From assembly GCF_014203545.1 (NCBI RefSeq), contig NZ_JACHJG010000002.1, positions 372,001 through 436,000 on the forward strand: a DNA stretch of 64,000 bases. Direction: 5' to 3'. Positions 26,122 to 64,000 of this stretch are shown here, piece by piece (position 1 is the stretch's first letter; every line of letters starts with the position of its first letter). The notes under the pieces were generated by a model. That model saw only the letters and a list, made by a program, of their open reading frames with translations, was not told the origin of the DNA and made no database searches. Both the position numbers and the translations under genes were made by a program. Source of the stretch: Streptomyces netropsis (GTDB taxonomy: Bacteria > Actinomycetota > Actinomycetes > Streptomycetales > Streptomycetaceae).

Positions 26122-27068
26122 CCGCGCGACGCATCGGCGCCGGGCTGCTCGCCCTCGCCCTGCTCGGCCTCGCGGGCTGCTCCAGTGGCGGCGACGGATC
26201 CGATACCGAGGAATCGGAGGCGACTTCCTCCGCCGGTCCCAGGAGGACCGGCAACCCGGACCCCGACGAGGACAAGGAAGACCCCACGGACCCCTCGGGT
26301 CCCTCCGAATCCTCCGGCCCCTCCGGCTCCGCCGATTCCCCCGACCCCGGCACCACGCGCCCGGCCTCCCGGCGCTGGCGGCCCCGCCCCGGGACCCGCT
26401 GGCAATGGCAGCTCGACGGGCGGGTCGACATGAGCGTGGACGTCCCCGTCTACGACATCGACGGCTTCGAGAACTCCGCGAAGACCGTCGCGGGACTGCA
26501 CGCCCGCGGCCGCAAGGTGATCTGCTACATCAACGCGGGCGCCTGGGAGAAGTTCCGGCCCGACCAGGCGGCCTTCCCCAAGGAACTGCTCGGCGAGAAC
26601 AACGGCTGGGCGGGCGAGCGGTGGCTCGACATCCGCCGCCTCGACGTCCTCCGGCCGCTGATGGCCACCCGTATCGACATGTGCCGGAAGAAGGGCTTCG
26701 ACGCCGTCGAACCGGACCTGACCGAGGGATACCGCAACACCACCGGATTCCCGCTCACCGCCGCCCATCAACTGGCCTTCAACCGCATGCTCGCGGAACT
26801 GGCCCACGACCGGGGGCTCGCGGTGGGCCTGAAGAACGACCTGGACCAAATCCCGGAGCTCGTGGGGGACTTCGACTTCGCGGTGAACGAGGAGTGCGCG
26901 CAGTTCGGCGAATGCGACCGGCTGACGCCGTTCGTGAAGCGGGACAAGGCGGTCTTCCACGTGGAGTACGCCTTGACGCCGGACGCGTTCTGCCGTGATG
27001 CCAAGCGGCTCGGGCTCAGCTCCATGCGCAAGCGGCTCGACCTGGACTCCTGGCGGAAACCCTGCTGA
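26118..27068 (+). CDS. GH114 endo-alpha-1,4-polygalactosaminidase lipoprotein
   Basis: The 316-residue lipoprotein has a lipobox (LLGLAGC, Cys about residue 20), a Ser/Pro/Gly/Asp-rich linker to about residue 75, and then the GH114 domain. Key pieces are WQWQLDGRVDMSVDVPVYDIDGF, VICYINAGAWEKFRPD, WLDIRRLDVLRPLMATRIDMCRKKGFDAVEPDLTEGY and FNRMLAELAHDRGLAVGLKNDLDQIPELVGDFDFAVNEECAQF. The enzymes cut alpha-1,4-GalN polymers such as Pel, which supports a GalNAc/GalN polymer as the operon's product. It is surface-anchored and ends the operon. Confidence 0.92.
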   Translation: MTARRIGAGLLALALLGLAGCSSGGDGSDTEESEATSSAGPRRTGNPDPDEDKEDPTDPSGPSESSGPSGSADSPDPGTTRPASRRWRPRPGTRWQWQLDGRVDMSVDVPVYDIDGFENSAKTVAGLHARGRKVICYINAGAWEKFRPDQAAFPKELLGENNGWAGERWLDIRRLDVLRPLMATRIDMCRKKGFDAVEPDLTEGYRNTTGFPLTAAHQLAFNRMLAELAHDRGLAVGLKNDLDQIPELVGDFDFAVNEECAQFGECDRLTPFVKRDKAVFHVEYALTPDAFCRDAKRLGLSSMRKRLDLDSWRKPC

Positions 27069-27127
27069 CCGCCTGCCGAGCACCGCAGAAGAGATGCGCC
27101 TCAGGAAAGAGGGATGAATACCCCGGG

Positions 27128-27155
27128 TTGCCGGATATCTGCTGAAAGGTAGCAT
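27128..27155 (+). promoter_or_regulatory. Promoter directly upstream of the tRNA-like element
   Basis: TTGCCG (27128-27133) and TAGCAT (27150-27155) lie 16 nt apart, a good match to a vegetative sigma (HrdB-type) promoter. Transcription would begin at about 27161-27163, exactly where the outer stem of the tRNA-like element begins. The site lies 60 nt after the GH114 stop codon. Confidence 0.65.
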
Positions 27156-27160
27156 TTTCC

Positions 27161-27240
27161 GTGAACGGGTAGATGGTGCGTTCAAGTCCACCCGGCTCCA
27201 CCACGTGGGGCCGTAGCTCAAGGCAGAGCGACCCGTTCGC
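27161..27240 (+). ncRNA. Circularly permuted tRNA-Ala-like RNA element at the head of the esterase/aminoacyl-lipid synthase operon
   Basis: The parts of a tRNA appear in rotated order. An outer stem GAACGGGT/ACCCGTTC (27163-27170, 27231-27238; 8 bp, extendable to 10) stands for the anticodon stem. A T-arm follows: stem GGTG/CACC with one bulged C and canonical loop GTTCAAGTC, 27175-27192. Next is the 3' acceptor strand CGGCTCC with discriminator A and encoded CCA (27193-27203). A three-base linker CGT precedes the 5' acceptor strand GGGGCCG (27207-27213). TA and a D-arm GCTC-AAGGCA-GAGC (27216-27229) complete it. The acceptor has G3-U70 and A73, the alanine identity set. No anticodon loop exists. 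YrlA-type Y RNAs share this topology, but no Ro60 gene is nearby. Confidence 0.85.
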
Positions 27241-27271
27241 CCACACCCCCCACACGGACGTGGTGCGACGC

Positions 27272-28588
27272 ATGCGGATCGCGGCAGGCCCGCTGGACTG
27301 GTCATTGGTGAGCGGATGGATTCCGCTCACCCTTCTCGTCGTGGGGCTGTGCGCGCTGGCGGCCCTGCTCTACTCCCGGCAGCGCCGGTGGTGGATCCGC
27401 TGGGGACCGGTCGCCGTCGTGCTCGCCGTGCTGCTCACCTGGCTGCTGCGGGTGGCCGTGGACGACTGGCTCCAGCTCTTCCCCGACCCGCTGCCGACCG
27501 ATGTGGTGCTCTGGGTCGGCGTCGCCGTCCTCGGCGTCGTTCTCGCGGCCTTCCGCCTTCCACTGCTCAGACCCCGCCTGTGGGTGCCCGTCCTGCTCGC
27601 CGGGCTGCTCGTCGTCCTGCTGGGGGCCTCGCAGATCAACCGGCACTTCGACCAGTACCCGACGGCGCGCACCGCCCTCAACACCTGGCTGCAGAAGACC
27701 ACCAGCCTGGCCGACGCGACCGGGCGCAAGGAGCCCGCCCTGCGGGTTCCGGCGGGCAAGGCGATCTCCGACGTGTGGCGGCCTCCGGCGGGGCTGCCCG
27801 AGAAGGGCACGCTCTCCAAGTCGTCGATCCCCGGCACCAAATCCGGCTTCGTCGCCCGGAGCGCGTACGTCTTCCTGCCCCCCGCCTACCGCTCCACCCC
27901 CCGCCCCCTGCTGCCGGTGATCGTGCTGATGGCCGGCCAGCCGGGATCGCCGGACGACTGGATCAACTCGGGCCGGCTGGTCGGCATGATGAACACCTTC
28001 GCCGCCGCGCACCGGGGCCTCGCCCCGGTGGTCGTCGTCGTGGACCCGCTCGGCAGGCAGTTCGCCAACACCCTCTGTGTGGACTCCAAGCTCGGCAACG
28101 TCCAGTCCTACCTCTCCTTGGACGTCCCCGACTGGATCCGCTCCCATCTCCAGGTCGCGACGGCCCGTACCTCCTGGATCGTCTCGGGCATCTCCTTCGG
28201 CGGTACCTGCTCCATCCAGCTCGGCGTCAACGCCCCCGACGTCTACGGCGTCGTCAACGACATCTCCGGTCAGGACGCGCCGACCCTCGGCAGCACCAAG
28301 AAGACCGTCGACACGGCGTTCGGCGGCGACCCGGCCGCCTACGCCGCCGTCAACCCGCTCGATGTGATGGCGCGCAAGCGGTTCCCCGACACCACGGCCG
28401 CGTTCATCGCCGGCAGCGACGACAAGACCTACCGGCCGCAACAGCGCAAGGTCTACGAGGCCGCGGTCAAGGCCGGCATGCGGGCCGAGTGGGTGGAGCT
28501 CCCCGGGGGCCACAGCTGGCAGGTATGGCGGCCCGGCCTGGAGCGTCAACTGCCCTGGCTGTCCCGGGAGACGGGACTGATCCGATGA
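27272..28588 (+). CDS. Membrane-anchored alpha/beta-hydrolase (esterase), likely partner of the aminoacyl-lipid synthase
   Basis: The 438-residue protein has about four N-terminal membrane helices (to residue 115) and then an esterase-D/antigen-85-like hydrolase domain. The nucleophile elbow is SGISFGGTCS. An Asp lies in FIAGSDDKTY and the catalytic His in ELPGGHSW. In other bacteria, hydrolases coupled to MprF-type genes remove amino acids from aminoacyl-lipids (for example AcvB in Agrobacterium); a related job is inferred. ATG 27272 was taken because the helices start soon after it; a GTG at 27263 is possible. No strong ribosome site is seen, and the tRNA-like element ends 31 nt upstream. 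It overlaps the next gene by 4 nt. Confidence 0.82.
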   Translation: MRIAAGPLDWSLVSGWIPLTLLVVGLCALAALLYSRQRRWWIRWGPVAVVLAVLLTWLLRVAVDDWLQLFPDPLPTDVVLWVGVAVLGVVLAAFRLPLLRPRLWVPVLLAGLLVVLLGASQINRHFDQYPTARTALNTWLQKTTSLADATGRKEPALRVPAGKAISDVWRPPAGLPEKGTLSKSSIPGTKSGFVARSAYVFLPPAYRSTPRPLLPVIVLMAGQPGSPDDWINSGRLVGMMNTFAAAHRGLAPVVVVVDPLGRQFANTLCVDSKLGNVQSYLSLDVPDWIRSHLQVATARTSWIVSGISFGGTCSIQLGVNAPDVYGVVNDISGQDAPTLGSTKKTVDTAFGGDPAAYAAVNPLDVMARKRFPDTTAAFIAGSDDKTYRPQQRKVYEAAVKAGMRAEWVELPGGHSWQVWRPGLERQLPWLSRETGLIR

Positions 28589-31131
28589 CCTCGGCACCTT
28601 CCCCCGCCCCGCTCGACGACCCCGCCGAGGCGCCCGTCGTCGGCGACAGCCGGCACCCGTGGCGCACCACCCTCGACCGGCTCCTCGCCCCCGTTCGGCA
28701 CGCCCCGTTCACCCTCGCCTTCCTCGCGGTCCTGTGGATCGTCGGTGCCGTCACCGGCAGCCTCGGCAGCGGCCCGAGCCGGCACCGCATGGAACGCTTC
28801 GGGGCCGGGCTGCCCTCCCTCGCCGAGGGCCGGTGGTGGACCCCGGCCACCTCGCTGCTGTGGTGCCCCGGCCTCGCCGGCTACATCGGCGCGACCGTCC
28901 TCGTCCTGGTGCTCCTGACACCCGCCGAACGCCGCCTCGGCGTCGCCCGCACCGCCGCGGTCCTGCTCGGCGGCCAGATCACGGGCACCCTGCTCGCCAT
29001 CGGCATCGTCAAACTCGGTTCCCTCGCGGGCGAGCAGTGGCTGGACAGCCTCTCCGAGGACCTCGCCGTCACCCCGACCGTCGGCGCGCTCGCCGTGGGC
29101 GGGGTCCTCAGCTACCGGCTCACCGCGCTGTGGCGCCGCCGGGTCCGGCTCGGCATCGGCGCGTTCGCGCTGGTGATGGCCCTGTACGTGGGGCATCTGC
29201 AAGGCGTCATGCGGTTCGGCGGGGTCGTGGTGGGCCTCGCCGCCGGTGCCGCGCTCTACCACCGCTCCGGCCGGGTGCGGCTGCGGCGCGCCTCGCACAC
29301 CGAGGCCCGGGTGCTGGTCGCCCTCGTCGTGGCCGCCTCCGCGATCGGACCGATGATCGCCATTCTCTACCGCGACGCGTACGGCCCCTTCAACTCCTTC
29401 GACAACCTCTACGTCTCCATCCAGCCCACCGCCGAGGAGATCGCGGACGCCTGCGCCTCCTCCGCCCGCGACTGTCACTCCGAGCACGCGATCCAGGACT
29501 TCTACCACTCGCCATCCGTGATCATGGCCGCGCTGGTGCCCATCCTGCTGCTCGTCCTCGCCGAGGGGCTGCGCCGCGGCCTGCGCCTCGCCTGGGGCCT
29601 CGCCGTGCTGGTGCACCTCGCCTGGATCGCGCTGCTCGGCTATCTGCTGAACGACTTCCTCGCCGACCCCCAGGCGTACGGCGCGGTACCCGCCGAACAC
29701 GCGGGGTACGTCCAGTCCTTCGTCGAGCAGATGCTGCTGCCGGTCCTGGTCCTCCTCCTGCTCGTCCTCACCCGCGACCGGTTCGACCTGCGGCTGCCGC
29801 GCACCGCGATGTACAAGCTGGCGGCGGTCGTCGGGGCCGCGTTCCTGCTGGTGTGCGCCGCCTACGTGGGCATCGGATACGCCGTGCGCGACCAGTACGA
29901 CCCGGACGCCACCCCCGGGCTGCTCTTCGGCGGGCTGGTGTCGGTGTTCCTGCCACCCGCCTTCCTCGACGAGTTCACCGACTCGCCGATCCCGGTCGGC
30001 GGCACGGCGAAGGCCCTCTACCAGTACTGCGGGCTCGTCTTCTGGGCGGTCGCCCTGGTCGCGCTGTTCTTCACCTTCCGCCGCCCCCGGCTGCACACCG
30101 ACGCGGACGCGGCCGTACGGGCCCGGGAACTCCTCACCACGCACGGCGGCTCGAACCTCTCCTACCTCACCACGTGGGACGGCAACTACTACTGGTTCGA
30201 CGAGAGCGGCCGGGCCGCCGTCGCCTACCGGGTGATCTCCACGGTGGCGCTGACGACCGGCGACCCGTTCGGCGACCCGCAGGCCCGCGCGGCCGCCGTC
30301 GCCGGCTTCTCCCGGCACTGCGACGAGCGCGGCTGGACACCCTGCTTCTACAGCGTGGGGTCACCGACCCTGGAGGCCGCCGAGCAGCTGGGCTGGCGGT
30401 CGGTGCAGGTGGCCGAGGACACCGTGGTGCCGCTGCCCGACCTGGCCTTCACCGGAAAGAAGTGGCAGGACGTCCGTACCGCCCTGAACAAGGCCAAGAA
30501 GGAGGGCATCACCGCGGAATGGTGGTCCTACCCCGAGGCCCCGGTCGCCCTCACCGACCAGGTGCGGTCGATCTCCGAGGAGTGGGTCGCCGACAAGGGG
30601 CTGCCGGAGATGGGCTTCACCCTGGGCGGCCTCGACGAACTCGACGACCCGGCGGTGCGCTGTCTGCTCGCCGTGGACGCCGACCGCACGGTGCACGGCA
30701 TCACCAGCTGGATGCCGGTCTACGGCAGTGGTAGCCCGGTGGGCTGGACGCTGGACTTCATGCGCCGCAGGGCCGGCGGATTCCGTGGCTCGATGGAGTT
30801 CCTGATCGCGTCGGCGGCCCTCGGCTTCAAGGAGGAGGGCGCCGCGTTCCTCAGCCTCTCCGGCGCCCCCCTGGCCCGCACGGCCAGCGCCCAGCCGCCC
30901 GCGGCGCTGCAACGCGTCCTCGACTACGGGGGAAAGGTCCTCGAACCGGTCTACGGCTTCCGGTCCTTGCTGAACTTCAAGGCCAAATTCCAGCCCCGGT
31001 ACCGGCCCCTGTACATGGCCTATCCCGATCCGGCCTTCCTGCCCGCCATCACCCGGGCGATCTCCAAGGCGTATCTGCCGCACATGACACCGGCCCAGGG
31101 CATGCGGCTGATGAGACAGTTCTCCGCCTAG
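28585..31131 (+). CDS. MprF/LysX-like aminoacyl-lipid (phosphatidylglycerol or diacylglycerol) synthase with rhomboid-like N-terminus
   Basis: The 848-residue protein begins with a membrane half (about residues 30-520, roughly 12 helices). Its first part has a rhomboid-like look (RFGAGLPSLAEGRWWTPATSLLWCPGLAGY). The C-terminal 330 residues are the DUF2156/phosphatidylglycerol lysyltransferase GNAT-like domain, with NLSYLTTWDGNYYWFDESGRAAVAYRVISTVALTTGDPFGD, WRSVQVAEDTVV, TALNKAKKEG and AFLSLSGAPLA. Family members move an amino acid from aminoacyl-tRNA to a membrane lipid and flip it, changing surface charge. Which amino acid is used cannot be read from sequence. The TAG stop shares its G with the first base of an inverted repeat. 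Confidence 0.88.
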   Translation: MTSAPSPAPLDDPAEAPVVGDSRHPWRTTLDRLLAPVRHAPFTLAFLAVLWIVGAVTGSLGSGPSRHRMERFGAGLPSLAEGRWWTPATSLLWCPGLAGYIGATVLVLVLLTPAERRLGVARTAAVLLGGQITGTLLAIGIVKLGSLAGEQWLDSLSEDLAVTPTVGALAVGGVLSYRLTALWRRRVRLGIGAFALVMALYVGHLQGVMRFGGVVVGLAAGAALYHRSGRVRLRRASHTEARVLVALVVAASAIGPMIAILYRDAYGPFNSFDNLYVSIQPTAEEIADACASSARDCHSEHAIQDFYHSPSVIMAALVPILLLVLAEGLRRGLRLAWGLAVLVHLAWIALLGYLLNDFLADPQAYGAVPAEHAGYVQSFVEQMLLPVLVLLLLVLTRDRFDLRLPRTAMYKLAAVVGAAFLLVCAAYVGIGYAVRDQYDPDATPGLLFGGLVSVFLPPAFLDEFTDSPIPVGGTAKALYQYCGLVFWAVALVALFFTFRRPRLHTDADAAVRARELLTTHGGSNLSYLTTWDGNYYWFDESGRAAVAYRVISTVALTTGDPFGDPQARAAAVAGFSRHCDERGWTPCFYSVGSPTLEAAEQLGWRSVQVAEDTVVPLPDLAFTGKKWQDVRTALNKAKKEGITAEWWSYPEAPVALTDQVRSISEEWVADKGLPEMGFTLGGLDELDDPAVRCLLAVDADRTVHGITSWMPVYGSGSPVGWTLDFMRRRAGGFRGSMEFLIASAALGFKEEGAAFLSLSGAPLARTASAQPPAALQRVLDYGGKVLEPVYGFRSLLNFKAKFQPRYRPLYMAYPDPAFLPAITRAISKAYLPHMTPAQGMRLMRQFSA

Positions 31132-31314: not shown

Positions 31315-33987
31315 ATGTCCTCACGCGCACATCGGCACTCCACAACGGATCTTTCCCTGCTCCCCGTACCGCACGTCCTCGGAGCGGCGGTGCTGGCCGG
31401 TGCCGCGTTCTCCCTCCTGCTCGGCGCACTGCGCGCGATCGGGGGGAAGCAGCCCGCCTGGCATGCGTCGTGGCCGGAGCCCATGGCCTCGGTCGCCGAG
31501 TGGGTGATGCAATGCCTCAACGGCGTGGCGCGCGTGGTGGCCGGTGGGCAGAACGGGGCTTCGCTGTCCCAGCGCCTCGGCTGCCTGCTGCTGCTCATCG
31601 CCTTCTTCGTCCTGCTGCGTCGCGCGATGCTCTCCCGAAACGCCTACAAGCCCGGACCGGTGGACGTGAAGCGGCTCGTCGCCTCGTCCCCGGACGTGGA
31701 GACGCAAGTGGAGGGCCTGACCGCGCAACTGCGCAAGTACCTTTCGGAAACCAATCTGTATCCCCCGACCGCCCTGCCGGCGGAGGCCCCCGCGGACAAC
31801 TTCCTGGATCTGCTGGGTGACGTCGACCTCGAACCGAAGAAGCTGGGGACGAGCCTGCTGCGGCTCTTCAGCCGACTGCGGCCCACGATCGCCTACACGG
31901 TCCGCGGGGTGCTGCGCGCGCGGGCCCAGGAGCCGCATCTCGGGGTGACGATCACCGTCACCTCCTACGCGATCAGGGGCAGTCGCACCGAGACACTCTG
32001 GGAGACGACGTGGGAGGACGTGGTGCGGGAGGCCGGGAACTGGGTGATGGCCACGCTCGTGCCGGTGACCCGGGCCAGCAGGCGCCCGCCCTGGCAGGAC
32101 TGGCACGGCAGGGACCTGTGCCCTGACTTGTTCGCCGCCTACCAGGAGGCGAGAAGACTCACGGAGGAGCGGAAGTTCGACGACGCCCTGGAGCACTACT
32201 ACGCGGCGCTGCGGCTCGACCCCATGAACCTGTATCTGCGGACCCAGATCGCCGGTACGCAGGAAAAACTCGGGCTGCATCTGGACGCCCTGGAGACCTA
32301 CTACGGAGCCATGCTCCTGGACGGGTGCACCAACAGGCAGCGCAAGGCCCGACTCGCCAGGAAGGCCTGGAACCCGCGCCGTTTCCTGCGCCACAGATAC
32401 CGGTGGTGGCGTGACGGGCTCCTGGAGGCCCGCTATCGGTACGCGGTCGTGCTCGGTGTCACGGAGCGCACCGCCGCGCAGTGGTGCCGCAGCCCGTTCG
32501 AGGACACCTTCGAACCGAGGCGGGCACAGGCCCGGGAGGAGATCCGCAGGTCACTGACGCCGGCATTCGTCGATCGGTACTGGCCGACACTGATCGGACT
32601 CACCCCACCCGGCCGTTCGCGGTTCGAGGCCGAGGACGAGGTACTGATCAAGGACTGGCTCGCGCGGCAACTCGGCGACCATTCCCGGCGGGAGATCGTC
32701 CGGATGATATTCCAGTGCGCGGCCCAGGAGGAGATGCGGCAGCTGGCCCGGGACTATCCCCTCGTCAGCCTGCATCCCTTCGCCGCCGCCCGCCGGCGTG
32801 GAACAGTCACCTGGCCCTCTCTCCGGCTCAACCGTGATGTCTGGGCACCGCTGAGGCTGGCCTGGGCCGACGGTGTGTGCGAGTCGGGGTGTGCGTCCGG
32901 GACCGAGTGCGTGCGACACCGCATCGACGGGTTGCCGAAGGCCCCGGACTGGCTCGCGCAGCCGGAGACCCTCGAGGAGCAGGTGCGGAAGGTGATGGCC
33001 TGGCCGCTGCCGGACCGGCTCAAGCAGTGGGCCAGGGACTGGAGCCTGTGGCCCCGTCGCCCGTGGCAGGACAGTTACAGCGCGGCATGCGTCTACGCCG
33101 TGGCGATGCACGTCAAGGCGCGGAAGATGAACGCGGACGACCTCGCGGAGATGGCCGTGAACGAGCTGGAGGACGCTGCGAGAACCGACCGGAGCGGCTT
33201 TCACCCCCTGATGAGGGAGTGGCTGCTCATCGAGGACCCCGATCTGGAGGAACTGCGGCGCAAGGACCGCTTCATCCGCTTCGAGCGTGAGACCTATCCG
33301 CATGCCGTCCCCGACCGCCACCGGCCGAGGCGGCCGTTGTGGGCCGAGGTGATGGCCTACGACCAGCGGCTCCTGCGCGGCACCGCCCGGGTCATGGAGG
33401 AGACCTGGTGCCTCAGAAAGGAGCGGCTGCCCGCCGAGACCCACGTCCTCGCCCAATGGTTCAGCGGAGAAGGGGAACTGTGGGAGTGCGTCCACCGTGT
33501 CGCCCGGAACCAGGGGTGCGATTGGCGCGACCGTGAAAAGCTGCTGCAGACCGTGCGCGCGATCGCCGACCCCGTCCTGCTGACCCGGTGCGGCCTGCCG
33601 TCCACGTTGCCCGAGCTGGACGAGCTGCTGGACGAGGCGGCGTGGATCGAACCCGGCGAGGCCGAGGGGCGGGTCGAGGTGTTCGACAAACTGATCGTGC
33701 GGCGCCTGCAGATCCTGAGCTGCGCCTTGCAGCAGCGGTCGGTGGACTCGGCCGCCGCGTCGCCCGTCTCGCGCAGTGTCCAGTGGCTCGCCGCGGTGCG
33801 GCAGGACTTCGCATCGGTCGGCTCCGTGTCCCCGGGCGCCGTCCGCCAGGCGTGCTGGGACTACGAGGCCACGTGGCGGGCGCTGAGCGAGCAGCTCGAT
33901 CCCGACGGGGACAAGCTCGCCCTGCCCAGGGCGCTGCGCCGCCTCCGGGAGCCGCGCGGCGCCCGGGGCGGTCCGGCCCTGGTCTGA
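31315..33987 (+). CDS. Large unknown protein with two membrane helices and a TPR-like region
   Basis: The 890-residue product has two N-terminal hydrophobic segments (about residues 21-42 and 84-103). A region at about 270-330 (YQEARRLTEERKFDDALEHYYAALRLDPMNLYLRTQIAGTQEKLGLHLDALETYYGAMLLD) reads as two TPR repeats. The rest is rich in Arg, Trp and Glu with several RW/WP motifs and a short Cys cluster (CESGCASGTEC, about 523-533). No catalytic motif is recognised. Codon use is as in the neighbours. It stands alone, with the inverted-repeat element upstream and a convergent terminator downstream. It may be a membrane-tethered scaffold; the function is unknown. Confidence 0.7.
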   Translation: MSSRAHRHSTTDLSLLPVPHVLGAAVLAGAAFSLLLGALRAIGGKQPAWHASWPEPMASVAEWVMQCLNGVARVVAGGQNGASLSQRLGCLLLLIAFFVLLRRAMLSRNAYKPGPVDVKRLVASSPDVETQVEGLTAQLRKYLSETNLYPPTALPAEAPADNFLDLLGDVDLEPKKLGTSLLRLFSRLRPTIAYTVRGVLRARAQEPHLGVTITVTSYAIRGSRTETLWETTWEDVVREAGNWVMATLVPVTRASRRPPWQDWHGRDLCPDLFAAYQEARRLTEERKFDDALEHYYAALRLDPMNLYLRTQIAGTQEKLGLHLDALETYYGAMLLDGCTNRQRKARLARKAWNPRRFLRHRYRWWRDGLLEARYRYAVVLGVTERTAAQWCRSPFEDTFEPRRAQAREEIRRSLTPAFVDRYWPTLIGLTPPGRSRFEAEDEVLIKDWLARQLGDHSRREIVRMIFQCAAQEEMRQLARDYPLVSLHPFAAARRRGTVTWPSLRLNRDVWAPLRLAWADGVCESGCASGTECVRHRIDGLPKAPDWLAQPETLEEQVRKVMAWPLPDRLKQWARDWSLWPRRPWQDSYSAACVYAVAMHVKARKMNADDLAEMAVNELEDAARTDRSGFHPLMREWLLIEDPDLEELRRKDRFIRFERETYPHAVPDRHRPRRPLWAEVMAYDQRLLRGTARVMEETWCLRKERLPAETHVLAQWFSGEGELWECVHRVARNQGCDWRDREKLLQTVRAIADPVLLTRCGLPSTLPELDELLDEAAWIEPGEAEGRVEVFDKLIVRRLQILSCALQQRSVDSAAASPVSRSVQWLAAVRQDFASVGSVSPGAVRQACWDYEATWRALSEQLDPDGDKLALPRALRRLREPRGARGGPALV

Positions 33988-56437: not shown

Positions 56438-58443
56438 CTGGCCGGCTCACCCGCCTCACCCGACTCCTGCCCGGGCGCCAGGGTGCGCGAGGCGTACATC
56501 CGCGCGTAGGTGCCCGCGTTCCCGATCAGCTCCTCGTGCGTGCCCCGCTCGATGATCCGCCCGGCCTCCATGACGACGATGACGTCGGCGTCCCGGATGG
56601 TCGAGAGCCGGTGCGCGATGACGAAGCTGGTGCGGCCCGCGCGCAGCGAGTTCAGCGCCCGCTGGATGAGGACCTCCGTGCGGGTGTCGACCGAACTCGT
56701 CGCCTCGTCCAGCACCAGGATCGCCGGCCCGGTCAGGAACGCCCGCGCCACCGTGATCAGTTGCTTCTCGCCGGCGCTGACGCTCGACGTCTCGTCGTCG
56801 AGCACGGTGTCGTACGCGTCGGGCAGGGTCCGCACGAAGCGGTCCACACAGGTGGCGCGCGCAGCGGCCACGATCTCCTCGCGGGTGGCGTCGGGGCGCC
56901 CGTACGCGATGTTCTCGGCGATCGTGCCGCCGAACAGCCAGGCGTCCTGGAGGACGAGACCGATGTTCGCGCGCAGCTCCTCGCGGGTCATCGCGGCGAT
57001 GTCCGTGCCGTCCAGCAGGATGTGGCCGCCGTCGACCTCGTAGAAGCGCATGAGGAGATTGCCCAGCGTGGTCTTGCCCGCCCCGGTCGGACCGACGATC
57101 GCCACGGTCTGGCCGGGCCGCACGGTGAGCGACAGGTCCTCGATCAGCGGGGTGTCCGGGGTGTAGGCGAACGACACCCGCTCGAACTCCACGTGCCCCT
57201 CGACCCGTTCGGGCCGCGCGGGCCGCTTCGGGTCGGGGCCCTGCTCGTCCGCGTCGAGCAGCGCGAAGACCCGCTCGGCGGACGCTGCGCCCGACTGCAG
57301 CCGGCCCGCGACGCTCGCCGCCTCGACGATCGGCCGGCTGAACCCGCCGGAGTACAGGATGAACGCCTGCACCTCGCCGATCGACAGCGATCCGCTCACG
57401 ACCCGCAGCGCACCGACGACGGCCACGACGATGTAGCTGAGGTTGGCGACGAACATCATCGACGGTTCGATGGTGCCCGACACGGACTGCGCCTTCGCGC
57501 CCGCCCGGTACATGGCCTCGTTGTGCTCGTCGAAGGCCCGCTCCGCCAACTCCCGCCTGCCGAAGCCCTTCACGAGCGAGTGCCCGCTGTACATCTCCTC
57601 GACATGGGCGTTGAGCGTCCCGGTGGCCGCCCACTGCGCGGCGAACTGCGGCTGTGCCCGCTTGACGATCAACGTGGCCAGCAGCGCCGACACGGGCACG
57701 CCGATCAGCATGATCAGGGCCAGCAGCGGCGAGATCACGAACATCAGGACCAGCATGCTCAGCGTGGAGAACACCGCGGTGATCAGCTGGCTCAGTGACT
57801 GCTGGAGGGTCTGCTGGAGGTTGTCGACGTCGTTGGTGACCCGGCTCAGCACCTCGCCCGGCGGATTGCGGTCGAAGTAGCTGAGCGGCAGGCGCGCGAG
57901 CTTCTCCTCCACCCTCTCGCGCAGATCGAACACGACCTGCTGGACGACGGCCGTGGCCAACCACCCCTGCAGGAGCGTGAACAGTGACGCCGCGGCGTAC
58001 AGCGCGAGGACGACCAACAGCAGCCGTCCGACCCCGTCGAAGTCGATGCCCTGACCGGGCACCACGTCCACCGTGCTGAAGACATTGGCGAGCGAGTCGT
58101 GGCCCTCGGCGCGCAGCCGCTCGACGACGGCGGCCTTCGACTCCCCGGTGGACACCTGCTTGCCGACGACACCGGCGAAGACCAGGTCCGTGGCATCACC
58201 GAGGAGCTTCGGGCCGAGGGCGTTCAGGGTGACGCCGACGATCCCGAGGCCGAGCAGCACGGCGATCCGCCCGCGCTGCGGGCGGAGCAGTCCCAGCACC
58301 CGGCGGACCGTACCGCGCGGGTCGCGTGCCTTCTCCGACGCCTCGGTGCCCTCCGGCGGGGTGTCCTGCCCCCCGTCCGGGACGGCTTCGGGCTCCCGCG
58401 GTGGTGTGCCCGGTGCCGCGCCGACCTTGACCGGGGGAGTCAT
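56428..58443 (-). CDS. ABC exporter half-transporter, second subunit (NysG/AmphG-like)
   Basis: The 671-residue fused permease-ATPase has six helices at about 60-370. The nucleotide-binding domain reads AIVGPTGAGKTTLGNLL (Walker A), LQDAWLFGGTIAENIAYGRPDATREE, SSVSAGEKQLITVARAFL (signature), ILVLDEATSSVDTRTE (Walker B), and VIAHRLSTI (H-loop). The signature SAGEKQ is the variant usual in heterodimeric exporters. The N-terminal 50 residues are Pro/Glu-rich. It pairs with the next gene upstream, 78 nt apart. Nystatin and amphotericin clusters carry two such transporters beside the GDP-mannose dehydratase gene, likely for polyene export. Confidence 0.9.
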   Translation of the reverse strand: MTPPVKVGAAPGTPPREPEAVPDGGQDTPPEGTEASEKARDPRGTVRRVLGLLRPQRGRIAVLLGLGIVGVTLNALGPKLLGDATDLVFAGVVGKQVSTGESKAAVVERLRAEGHDSLANVFSTVDVVPGQGIDFDGVGRLLLVVLALYAAASLFTLLQGWLATAVVQQVVFDLRERVEEKLARLPLSYFDRNPPGEVLSRVTNDVDNLQQTLQQSLSQLITAVFSTLSMLVLMFVISPLLALIMLIGVPVSALLATLIVKRAQPQFAAQWAATGTLNAHVEEMYSGHSLVKGFGRRELAERAFDEHNEAMYRAGAKAQSVSGTIEPSMMFVANLSYIVVAVVGALRVVSGSLSIGEVQAFILYSGGFSRPIVEAASVAGRLQSGAASAERVFALLDADEQGPDPKRPARPERVEGHVEFERVSFAYTPDTPLIEDLSLTVRPGQTVAIVGPTGAGKTTLGNLLMRFYEVDGGHILLDGTDIAAMTREELRANIGLVLQDAWLFGGTIAENIAYGRPDATREEIVAAARATCVDRFVRTLPDAYDTVLDDETSSVSAGEKQLITVARAFLTGPAILVLDEATSSVDTRTEVLIQRALNSLRAGRTSFVIAHRLSTIRDADVIVVMEAGRIIERGTHEELIGNAGTYARMYASRTLAPGQESGEAGEPASQA

Positions 58444-61994: not shown

Positions 61995-64000
61995 ATGGAC
62001 AACGAACAGAAGCTCCGGGACTACCTCAAGCGAGCGACAGCCGATCTCCGACGGACGCGGCAGCGGGTGCAGGAGCTCGAGTCGGCCTCCCAGGAGCCCA
62101 TCGCCATCATCGGCATGACCTGCCGCTACCCGGGTGGTGTGGCCGGCCCGGAGGACCTGTGGCGGATGGTCGAGGCCGGCGGGAACGGCATCACCGACTT
62201 CCCCACGGACCGTGGCTGGGACCCCGAGGCCCTCGCCGCCTCCCAGACGAACTCCGGTGGCTTCCTGCACGACGCGGCCGAGTTCGACACCGGCTTCTTC
62301 GGGATCTCCCCGCGCGAGGCGGTGGCCATGGACCCGCAGCAGCGGGTGCTGCTGGAGTCGTCCTGGGAGGCCTTCGAACGCGCCGGCATCGACCCCACCT
62401 CCATCCGGGGCACCCAGACCGGTGTGTTCATGGGCGCGATGGCCCAGGACTACCGCGTCGGCCCCGCCGACGGCGTCGAGGGCTTCCAGCTCACCGGCAA
62501 CACCGGCAGTGTGCTGTCCGGCCGCATCTCCTACGTCTTCGGTGCCGTCGGTCCCGCCGTGACCGTCGACACCGCCTGCTCCTCCTCGCTCGTGGCCCTC
62601 CACCTCGCCACCCAGGCGCTGCGCGCGGGCGAGTGCTCGCTCGCTCTCGCCGGTGGTGTCACGGTCATGGCGAGCCCCACGACGTTCGTCGAGTTCAGCC
62701 GCCAGGGCGGGCTGTCCGCCGACGGCCGCTGCCGTTCCTTCGCCGACTCCGCCGACGGCACCGGCTGGGCGGAGGGCGTCGGTGTGCTGGTGCTGGAGCG
62801 GCTCTCCGACGCCCAGCGCAACGGGCACGAGATCCTCGCCGTGGTGCGCGGCAGCGCCGTCAACCAGGACGGCGCGTCCAACGGCCTGACCGCCCCGAAC
62901 GGCCCCTCCCAGCAGGCGGTGATCCAGCAGGCACTGGTCAACGCCCGGCTGTCGGCCGACGAGGTCGACGTCGTCGAGGCACACGGCACGGGCACCACGC
63001 TGGGCGACCCCGTCGAGGCCCAGGCACTGCTCGCCACGTACGGCCGCAACCGCGACGAGAGCCGGCCGCTGCTCCTCGGCTCGGTGAAGTCGAACATCAG
63101 CCACACCCAGGCCGCCGCCGGCGTCGCCGGTGTCATCAAGATGGTCATGGCCATGCGCCACGGCGTCCTGCCCAAGACCTTGATGGTCGACGCCCCCTCG
63201 TCCCACGTGGACTGGTCACAGGGCGCCGTCCGCCTCCTCACCGAGAACACCGCCTGGCCCGAGACCGGGCGGCCGATGCGTGCGGCCGTCTCCTCCTTCG
63301 GCATCAGCGGCACCAACGCCCACACCATCGTCGAGCAGGCCCCCGAGCCCGAGAACGACCCCGAGGGCTCGGCGGACGTCACCGTCGCCCCGGGCGTCGT
63401 GCCCGTGCCGGTCTCCGGCCGGACCCGCGAGGCCCTGCGGGCCCAGGCCGGACGACTGCTGTCCGCCCTGACCGCCGACCCTCGGCCCGGCGTCCTCGAC
63501 ACCGCGTACTCCCTGGCCACGTCGCGCGCCGGCTTCGAGCACCGCGCCGTGCTCGTCGCCGCCGGACACGACGACGTCGTCGCCGGTCTGACCGCCCTGG
63601 CCGAGGACCGCCCGGCGCCCGGCTGCGTCCAGGGCACCACCCAGGGCGAGGGCAAACTCGCGTTCCTCTTCTCCGGCCAGGGCAGCCAACGCCTCGGCAT
63701 GGGCCGGGAGCTGTACGAGCGGTTCCCCGTCTTCGCCGAGGCCCTCGACGAGGTCCTCGCCGCATTGGACAGCCACCTGGACGGGTCGCTGCGCGACGTC
63801 ATGTGGGGCGAGCAGGAGGAGGAGCTGGAGCGCACCGGCTACGCCCAGCCCGCCCTGTTCGCCGTCGAGGTCGCTCTCTTCCGGCTGACGCAGTCGTGGG
63901 GCGTCAAGCCCGACTTCCTGGCGGGCCACTCCATCGGCGAGGTCGTCGCCGCCCACGTCGCCGGGGTGCTGTCGCTGAGCGACGCGGCCGCCCTGGTCGC
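61995..64000 (+). CDS. Modular type I polyketide synthase, N-terminal part (runs off the window)
   Basis: 668 residues are visible. Residues 1-33 ([20 protein letters not shown] and a coiled coil) form a docking domain, so this PKS receives a chain from another subunit. A full ketosynthase follows (about 34-460) with Cys195 in DTACSSSL, His330 in EAHGTGT and His370 in KSNISH. The acyltransferase begins at about 555 with [14 protein letters not shown] and its GHSIGE nucleophile at 644-649; substrate motifs lie beyond the window. The position after the exporter and GDP-mannose dehydratase genes matches nysI/amphI of nystatin-type clusters. The ATG start has only a weak ribosome site. Confidence 0.95.

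Follow-up and report, generated by a model that had tools for sequence, protein, structure and literature searches.

In the permuted transfer RNA (tRNA) genes of algae and archaea, as in two-piece transfer-messenger RNA (tmRNA), the 3′ half is encoded first and the linker is removed. In a stretch of 64,000 nucleotides (nt) of Streptomyces netropsis (NZ_JACHJG010000002.1, positions 372,001-436,000; hereafter “the window”, whose own positions serve as coordinates), we have identified an element which, as read from its sequence, is laid out like a tRNA-Ala that has been circularly permuted, the chain being open in the anticodon loop and the natural ends joined by a short linker. It shares with the above RNAs the placement of the 3′ half before the 5′ half and the linker between them; yet those restore an anticodon or a tag module, whereas the element is broken at the anticodon and cannot decode. 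It is almost certainly a real, selected permuted tRNA-Ala-like RNA, and we consider it likely that its function is tied to the alanine-lipid metabolism of the esterase and MprF-type synthase encoded downstream.

tmRNA has no canonical D arm, which the element does have. Charging of tmRNA with alanine is reported (PMC3985003), and G3-U70 is described as the major determinant of alanyl-tRNA synthetase (AlaRS) (PMC6451123). The acceptor domain of tRNA-Ala and tmRNA has in common with the element G3.U70, A73 and the acceptor strands GGGGCYG/CRGCUCC; unlike these RNAs, the element is permuted, has no anticodon loop and has no 3′ end unless processed. The non-proteinogenic tRNA-Gly of Staphylococcus aureus, which is used in cell-wall synthesis, differs from the element in its normal order and in the presence of anticodons. 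The parallel lies in its escape from EF-Tu through altered T-arm pairs, with 49-65 and 51-63 among the EF-Tu elements lost (PMC9976931).

Among small RNAs, YrlA is the closest in topology, as an earlier sequence-only reading of the stretch had proposed. Its structure (PDB 6CU1) can be superposed on tRNAs in circular permutation (PMC11472068), and both RNAs present a tRNA-like core in the order outer stem, T arm, acceptor hairpin, D arm. Unlike YrlA, the element has no Ro-binding stem, scores below the Rfam cut-off and carries invariant alanine identity elements and a T-stem bulge.

The two genes downstream recall, by analogy, the pesT/alaDAGS pair of Corynebacterium glutamicum. In that organism, pesT encodes a putative esterase. 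AlaDAGS is an MprF-family alanyl-diacylglycerol synthase, and the ΔpesT ΔalaDAGS mutant serves as the strain free of Ala-lipids; unlike here, no tRNA-like RNA is mentioned in the excerpt (PMC10580965).

Layout and fold of the element

The element is composed of the following parts, single bases being given in tRNA numbering.
27163..27238, + strand: permuted tRNA-Ala-like element, core (read directly; fold; alignment; covariance models R1 and R2, see below)
27163..27170, + strand: outer (anticodon) stem, 5′ strand, G36 A37 A38 and 39-43, pairing with 27231-27238
27171..27174, + strand: variable loop AGAT (A44, G45, A46, U48)
27175..27192, + strand: T arm GGTG(C)G-TTCAAGT-CCACC with a bulged pyrimidine at 27179
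27193..27200, + strand: 3′ acceptor strand CGGCTCC (66-72; 27193-27199; U70 at 27197) and A73 (27200)
27201..27206, + strand: linker CCACGT joining A73 to G1, CCA being encoded in the window
27207..27213, + strand: 5′ acceptor strand GGGGCCG (1-7; G3 at 27209)
27214..27230, + strand: U8 A9, D arm GCTC-AAGGCA-GAGC (27216-27229) and G26
27231..27238, + strand: outer (anticodon) stem, 3′ strand, 27-31 and U32 U33 C34

From 5′ to 3′ the order is 36-38, 39-43, variable loop, T arm (49-52, bulged C, G53, U54 U55 C56 A57 A58 G59 U60, 61-65), 66-72, A73, linker, 1-7, U8 A9, D arm (positions 10-25, carrying A14 A15 G18 G19), G26, 27-31 and U32 U33 C34. Direct reading thus confirms the rotated layout (T arm, 3′ acceptor, linker, 5′ acceptor, D arm) of the sequence-only reading. 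The T stem is formed by 27175-27178 and 27180 paired with 27188-27192, with C 27179 bulged out and TTCAAGT (27181-27187) as the loop; G3.U70 is the pair 27209.27197. The outer stem had been taken to replace the anticodon arm, which proved incorrect: it is the anticodon stem itself (27-31/39-43), extended by pairing of the loop bases 32-34/36-38 to 8 base pairs (bp; 10 bp in the window), and therefore the permutation point lies at about position 35. Since the termini meet in the anticodon loop, there is no anticodon, and no route to a decoding tRNA as in permuted tRNA genes.

Judged by sequence only, the window keeps A73, G3.U70 and the tertiary-contact sites U8-A14, A15-U48, G19-C56 and T54-A58. 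The stretch 27161-27240 folds at -40.3 kcal/mol (z -4.19), with 0 of 200 shuffles equally good. ARAGORN called no tRNA gene at the element, which also stayed below the gathering thresholds of Rfam 15. Conserved coding was considered and rejected: a frame from ATG 27173 runs into the esterase in the window, yet linkers of 6, 5, 5 and 8 nt in the window, Streptomyces sp. ISL-11, S. eurocidicus and S. albireticuli break the frame.

Distribution

In 80 loci of the downstream synthase taken from named genomes, Streptomyces sp. ISL-11, S. eurocidicus and S. albireticuli were found to have the element ahead of the esterase, and S. olivoreticuli a diverged form of it. A covariance model (R1) was trained on the window and the first three of these. 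Applied to 26 genomes, it retrieved the untrained sequences of S. silaceus (98.1 bits), S. atriruber (97.9 bits) and Streptacidiphilus jiangxiensis (90.0 bits). A second model (R2) added two of 14 Streptacidiphilus genomes (G450, 101.9 bits; G449, 89.3 bits), ten others of this set reaching only 36.7-40.1 bits and one having no match, and one of 70 Kitasatospora genomes (G515, 91.3 bits), eleven others lying at 44.6-48.9 bits. We refer to these ten sequences, window included, as canonical; together with two diverged ones, S. olivoreticuli (57.5 bits) and S. orinoci (33.6 bits), they make up the carriers.

Wider searches returned the same sequences. R1 matched 63 of 392 Streptomyces genomes at E <= 0.01, namely the window, two at 97 bits or more (by coordinates the S. 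eurocidicus and S. atriruber loci again) and 60 others at no more than 50.5 bits. From 394 genomes of the class, representing 137 genera, R2 recovered the window only (E <= 1e-6), and in 47 genomes with a synthase homologue, some shared with the Kitasatospora set, G449 was the only one at canonical strength. The exact permuted-tRNA pattern, which is too strict, occurred in the window and in one other place in 295 genomes, and BLAST of 181 bases against 61 genomes returned, besides the window itself, two short alignments of low score to the 3′ flank. At E <= 1e-5, neither plasmids nor phages contained a match to the element, and plasmids contained none to the Streptacidiphilus copy, so an origin from a mobile element or phage was rejected.

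Weak model matches (about 17-50 bits) were not counted as members, being a mix of other permuted classes, tandem tRNAs (for example L096, L115) and coding-like stretches (by eye L099, L101); those below 51 bits were inspected in part. Tandem-tRNA junctions mimic the permuted topology, which makes them a source of false matches and a possible route of origin for permuted RNAs.

Sequence constraint and covariation

Outside the linker, the window, S. eurocidicus and S. albireticuli agree at all 70 bases and ISL-11 differs at one site, so that every pair of the four species agrees at 69-70 of 70. At fourfold sites of the esterase, the four agree by 65-74% (90% for the pair S. eurocidicus-S. albireticuli), and the window agrees with the three others by 65-69%, and with S. 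eurocidicus and S. albireticuli by 67-69%. It was conceivable that the element is a functionless relic of tandem tRNA genes, composed of the 3′ half of one and the 5′ half of the next; indeed a tRNA-Asn pair gives the same topology by chance, the element has decayed in S. olivoreticuli and S. orinoci, and many relatives are without it. Nonetheless, identity over all 70 bases against 67-69% at the fourfold sites argues against a relic, as do compensatory changes across genera, and we regard this explanation as highly improbable.

In alignment A6, which holds the ten canonical sequences, 239 of 240 cells are paired, while slid controls reach at most 52.4%. Double changes affect five pairs in three helices, three of them in the outer stem, one at 51-63 (UA/AU) and one at 6-67, which switches between C-G and U-A while 3.70 stays unchanged. 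The covariation score is 0.196 against a shuffle mean of 0.083, and 0 of 500 shuffles scored as high. Thus, the covariation that the sequence-only reading had proposed to look for with a covariance model was found in the outer, T and acceptor stems but not in the D stem, which is invariant in 10 of 10 and for that reason offers no such evidence. The variable loop is AGAT in nine rows and AGAC in Kitasatospora G515, and the linker varies in both length and sequence. An alternative T-stem register (GATGG/CCACC) was dropped for the canonical ten, in which the tRNA register pairs 100% of T-stem cells. It is the better fit for S. olivoreticuli (GGACGG/CCGTCC) and S. orinoci (GGATGG/CCATCC), where a plain fold of four helices may have taken the place of the tRNA-like one.

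Alanine identity elements and the T-stem bulge

G3.U70 and A73, noted in the window by the sequence-only reading, are present in all ten canonical sequences. Its claim that invariant tRNA bases are kept holds beyond the window as well: U8, A14, A15, G19, C56 and A58 are invariant in A6, and U48 and U54 are kept in 9 of 10; the contact 18-55 varies (G-U, A-G, U-U). C5-G68 is also invariant. The alanyl-phosphatidylglycerol synthase of Pseudomonas aeruginosa is reported to read this pair, although the literature searched did not show it.

The alignment of R1 matches comprises 78 rows: nine canonical (seven distinct), two diverged, two tandem tRNA-Ala(ggc) junctions, two coding-like and 63 others. 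G3.U70 is seen in none of the 63 others (41 C-G, 21 G-C, 1 U-G), although both tandem tRNA-Ala rows have it, as do both coding-like rows. A further feature, absent from the sequence-only reading, is a pyrimidine bulge in the T stem between 52 and 53, carried by 10 of 10 canonical sequences, where 62 of the 63 others have a gap. We infer, by analogy with the altered T arm of the S. aureus tRNA-Gly, that such a bulge would weaken EF-Tu binding.

Relation to YrlA RNAs

YrlA (RF02553) was the only relevant sub-threshold Rfam match, at 16 bits against a cut-off of 69, over 27161-27240. Positions 14-95 of the 114 in the model match the element, the basal Ro-binding stem having no match; moreover, if the predicted transcription start is right, there is no room for the 5′ strand of a Ro stem, because the outer stem follows the end of the -10-like hexamer at a distance of 7 nt. 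The score alone would be a weak criterion, since even the Ro-linked RNAs found in these genera do not reach the cut-off (25.6-47.2 bits). Membership in ordinary YrlA was rejected on the missing Ro stem, the missing Ro linkage and the score together, the topology being retained.

A TROVE/Ro gene was found in 15 of 24 genomes tested, that of the window included (G449, G450 and G515 were outside this search), and YrlA-type RNAs distinct from the element lie upstream of Ro in 13 of the 15 loci. A Ro gene adjoins the element in one of 12 loci, that of S. jiangxiensis, the surroundings in G449, G450 and G515 being judged by eye from reading-frame lists. As far as the draft assemblies permit, no Ro gene was found in S. 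eurocidicus, where the element is intact, or in S. olivoreticuli. The sequence-only reading had held that a Ro60 homologue bound to the element would point to an ordinary YrlA RNA. A Ro gene does exist in the genome of the window, yet the missing stem and the intact element of S. eurocidicus lead away from that interpretation.

Perhaps the element is a Ro-independent, Y-RNA-like scaffold, whose tRNA-like module binds PNPase or tRNA-modifying enzymes with no alanine chemistry. The permuted topology common to YrlA would fit, as would the binding of PNPase by the tRNA-like domain of YrlA (PMC8394870), the copy adjoining Ro in S. jiangxiensis and the occurrence of Ro-linked YrlA-type RNAs in several of the same genomes. 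However, a scaffold of this kind would not account for the combination of G3.U70 and A73, invariant here and absent in the 63 other rows, nor for the co-occurrence with the esterase described below, and the lack of a Ro-binding stem, the 16 bits against 69 and the intact element in S. eurocidicus set it further apart. We consider it unlikely.

The Rfam YrlA model seems too strict for these bacteria. Loci L153, L159-L165 and L167-L171 carry one or two YrlA-type RNAs each, as full-model or core-only matches, none reaching 69 bits, and none was seen at the Ro loci L166 and L172. In the window's own genome, one weak YrlA-like core lies upstream of Ro (L153:4949-5007, 27 bits, E 0.15); the best YrlA match of that genome (44.6 bits, L087:1477-1628) is an artefact of two tandem tRNA-Asn genes.

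Promoter and predicted transcript

Upstream of the element, two promoter hexamers are predicted.
27128..27133, + strand: predicted -35 hexamer TTGCCG (by-eye comparison with relatives)
27150..27155, + strand: predicted -10 hexamer TAGCAT (chosen by eye; 16 nt spacing from -35)

By eye, TTGCCG and the 16-nt spacing recur in ISL-11, S. eurocidicus, S. albireticuli, S. olivoreticuli and S. orinoci, and a -10-like hexamer precedes the element by 7 nt in 10 of 12 loci (6 in S. silaceus, 8 in S. orinoci), being weak in S. jiangxiensis (GAGGCT) and S. pinicola (GACAAT). A start of transcription at the first base of the element, as the sequence-only reading placed it, is thus predicted by this comparison, but a strict sigma-70 scan gave no promoter in 26900-27400. 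In the window's clade, which we take to be the verticillate Streptomyces, the element occupies the stretch between the -10-like hexamer and the start codon. In 11 element-free relatives (L006-L008, L012-L016, L020, L022, L083), a similar promoter, judged by eye, abuts the start of the esterase in the manner of leaderless mRNAs; their genomes contain no R1 match above 36.7 bits.

Of the ten canonical loci, those of S. silaceus, S. jiangxiensis and Kitasatospora G515 have a strong hairpin that starts 10-14 nt behind the element, and by eye a terminator-like sequence lies further downstream in G450. No strong simple hairpin was found behind the element in the window's clade, S. atriruber or G449. 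Because of its own -10-like hexamer in 12 loci and the hairpins behind it in some, the element is probably an RNA gene of its own, which also forms the front of the operon mRNA in the clade of the window.

Might it act only as a cis leader? In that case an uncut mimic within the mRNA would bind AlaRS, the synthase or another tRNA-binding protein and control the operon, on the model of the tRNA-mimicking operator of Escherichia coli thrS. As expected of a leader, the element begins at the predicted +1 in the clade of the window and stands ahead of the esterase in S. silaceus and S. atriruber. It is under strong constraint, no strong simple hairpin separates it from the gene in the window's clade or S. 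atriruber, and inspection by eye shows no clear ribosome-binding site in front of the GTG of the window. Yet in four genomes (three Streptacidiphilus, one Kitasatospora) the element is not adjacent to the operon, so it is not only a cis leader; the strong hairpins directly behind it in three loci and the 11 relatives of the same clade that manage without it also count against this role, which we judge improbable.

A trans-acting small RNA (sRNA) was likewise considered, in which a C/U-rich tail behind the outer stem (ACCTACCTCCC and similar) would pair with the ribosome-binding sites of targets, the tRNA-like part serving as a stabilising cap. Pyrimidine-rich tails do occur in the window's clade as well as in S. 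silaceus, S. atriruber and G515, and S. silaceus and G515 also have a terminator-like hairpin behind the element; however, it is the tRNA core with its alanine identity elements that is conserved, and the tail is unconserved in Streptacidiphilus. The chance that this applies seems slim.

The esterase and the synthase

Two genes follow the element in the window.
27260..28588, + strand: PesT-like esterase (PF00756, 53.9 bits; GTG start predicted, ATG 27272 in frame; label PesT by analogy)
28585..31131, + strand: MprF-type aminoacyl-lipid synthase, rhomboid-like membrane part and LPG_synthase_C (PF09924, 286 bits; PF20401, 33 bits)

The position before an esterase/aminoacyl-lipid synthase operon, as given in the sequence-only reading, therefore holds for the window but not for the four genomes where the element stands apart, namely the three Streptacidiphilus and G515. 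The esterase is present in 12 of 12 known carriers (two of them diverged), and the synthase adjoins it in 10. In S. silaceus and S. atriruber, the element is followed by the esterase only and the synthase homologue lies on another contig; thus the tie is to the esterase rather than to the operon as a whole. Three of the 14 Streptacidiphilus genomes have the element, and precisely these three have the esterase (Fisher p 0.0027); no esterase match at 1e-40 was found in 19 sampled Streptomyces without a canonical element.

In the esterase trees, carriers are scattered among non-carriers in the window's clade, several forks there being weakly supported. S. silaceus and S. atriruber form the sister group of this clade in the first tree (97/94), the second leaving the order open. 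The simplest reading is an old linkage of element and esterase that was lost several times; independent gains are also possible.

Behind the operon, a frame of 890 residues (31315-33987) had no Pfam or NCBIfam match at E <= 0.001.

Proposed role

The features that stay invariant are the AlaRS determinants, the elbow and the acceptor, without an anticodon, which favours a non-ribosomal alanine carrier or mimic. Close copies were found only in genomes with the esterase, which makes a role in alanine-lipid chemistry more likely than one in protein synthesis. In our best explanation, held tentatively and as somewhat less than probable, the element is a non-ribosomal mimic of tRNA-Ala serving the Ala-lipid pathway in which the PesT-like esterase and MprF-type synthase are predicted to act. 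AlaRS would recognise it through G3.U70 and A73, the missing anticodon and the bulged T stem would keep it out of translation, and it would deliver alanine to the predicted lipid pathway or control its delivery. For use by MprF the RNA should not require an anticodon, since according to a review an MprF efficiently recognises an alanine minihelix (PMC4052509).

As for the mechanism, the element would be transcribed as a small RNA, in the window's clade also as the 5′ end of the esterase-synthase mRNA. Nucleases acting on tRNA ends, RNase P or RNase Z, could cut the linker, leaving a two-piece tRNA with a free acceptor end able to receive CCA, which would be charged with alanine and then used by the synthase. 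Such a charged donor is possible, though we would sooner expect it to fail than to hold. If the linker stays uncut, the RNA would be an unchargeable mimic titrating or sensing AlaRS or the synthase, and this sensor or decoy role is the next best reading. The most specific form of the mimic explanation is a dedicated non-ribosomal alanine carrier in Streptomycetaceae, permuted, anticodon-less and two-piece, excluded from EF-Tu by the bulge, loaded by AlaRS and reserved for the alanylation of lipids, which in some Streptomyces heads the mRNA of its enzymes; in this entirety it is doubtful.

Several observations weigh against the mimic explanation. Transcript, ends and charging are predicted, and in the modelled fold the 3′ end needed for charging is enclosed in a closed hairpin. 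The encoded ACCA seen in the window by the sequence-only reading is correct there but not conserved, only three of the ten canonical sequences having it. The alanine specificity of the synthase is suggested by analogy only. The diverged S. olivoreticuli has G3-C70 and an altered T loop, and S. orinoci has lost the T loop. Although the element stands before homologous operons in several relatives, as anticipated, 11 members of the window's esterase clade have the operon with no element upstream. Moreover, of ten Kitasatospora sampled, seven match the esterase below 1e-100 yet lack a canonical element, and three have only a more distant esterase; 46 of the 47 genomes with a synthase homologue are without a match of canonical strength (two at about 46 bits). 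The co-occurrence in Streptacidiphilus may be a single event, as the three esterases form one clade in the esterase tree. Finally, 75 of 500 shuffles equalled A6 in the count of double-change pairs, and 465 did so in that of further pair types.

The way in which MprF enzymes draw off aminoacyl-tRNA, for which EF-Tu seemingly has the same affinity, is described as an open question (PMC9976931). If the mimic explanation is true, an alanine-type RNA without an anticodon would make this question directly testable, and the tRNA-mimicking layout of Y RNAs would gain a use independent of Ro. Even if never charged, the element belongs to an RNA class without earlier description in Rfam 15 or in the literature searched, of which coverage was partial.

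Other RNA observations

Many Streptomyces and Kitasatospora contain a second permuted tRNA-like class, often in the form of two copies that differ from each other and are spaced about 147 nt.
L121-L147, L095, L114, L203, L204 (e.g. L121:1501-1576 and 1648-1723, - strand): second permuted class

It has no G3.U70 and almost never a T-stem bulge, and scores 28-41 bits against YrlA where scanned. In five loci listed (L151, L152, L154, L203, L204), it lies downstream of a gene of 243 residues, which is DUF7873 (PF25283) by Pfam in L151 and similar by eye in the other four; DUF7873 was unnamed in the literature searched, again with partial coverage. A similar tandem pair in Streptacidiphilus jiangxiensis (L116:1501-1583 and 1651-1726) has no DUF7873-like frame around it (L155).

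Within the window, ARAGORN called a tRNA-Ser(cga) at 57322-57419 (- strand), which is unsupported by Rfam, looks coding by eye and is probably a false call, and Rfam gave an ASpks match at 63015-63089 (- strand; 55.2 bits, cut-off 52). Elsewhere, a T-box-like leader (L150:2737-2977, - strand; 43.9 bits, cut-off 93) lies 5′ of a frame of 465 residues (1371-2768, - strand) that by eye resembles an aminoacyl-tRNA synthetase.

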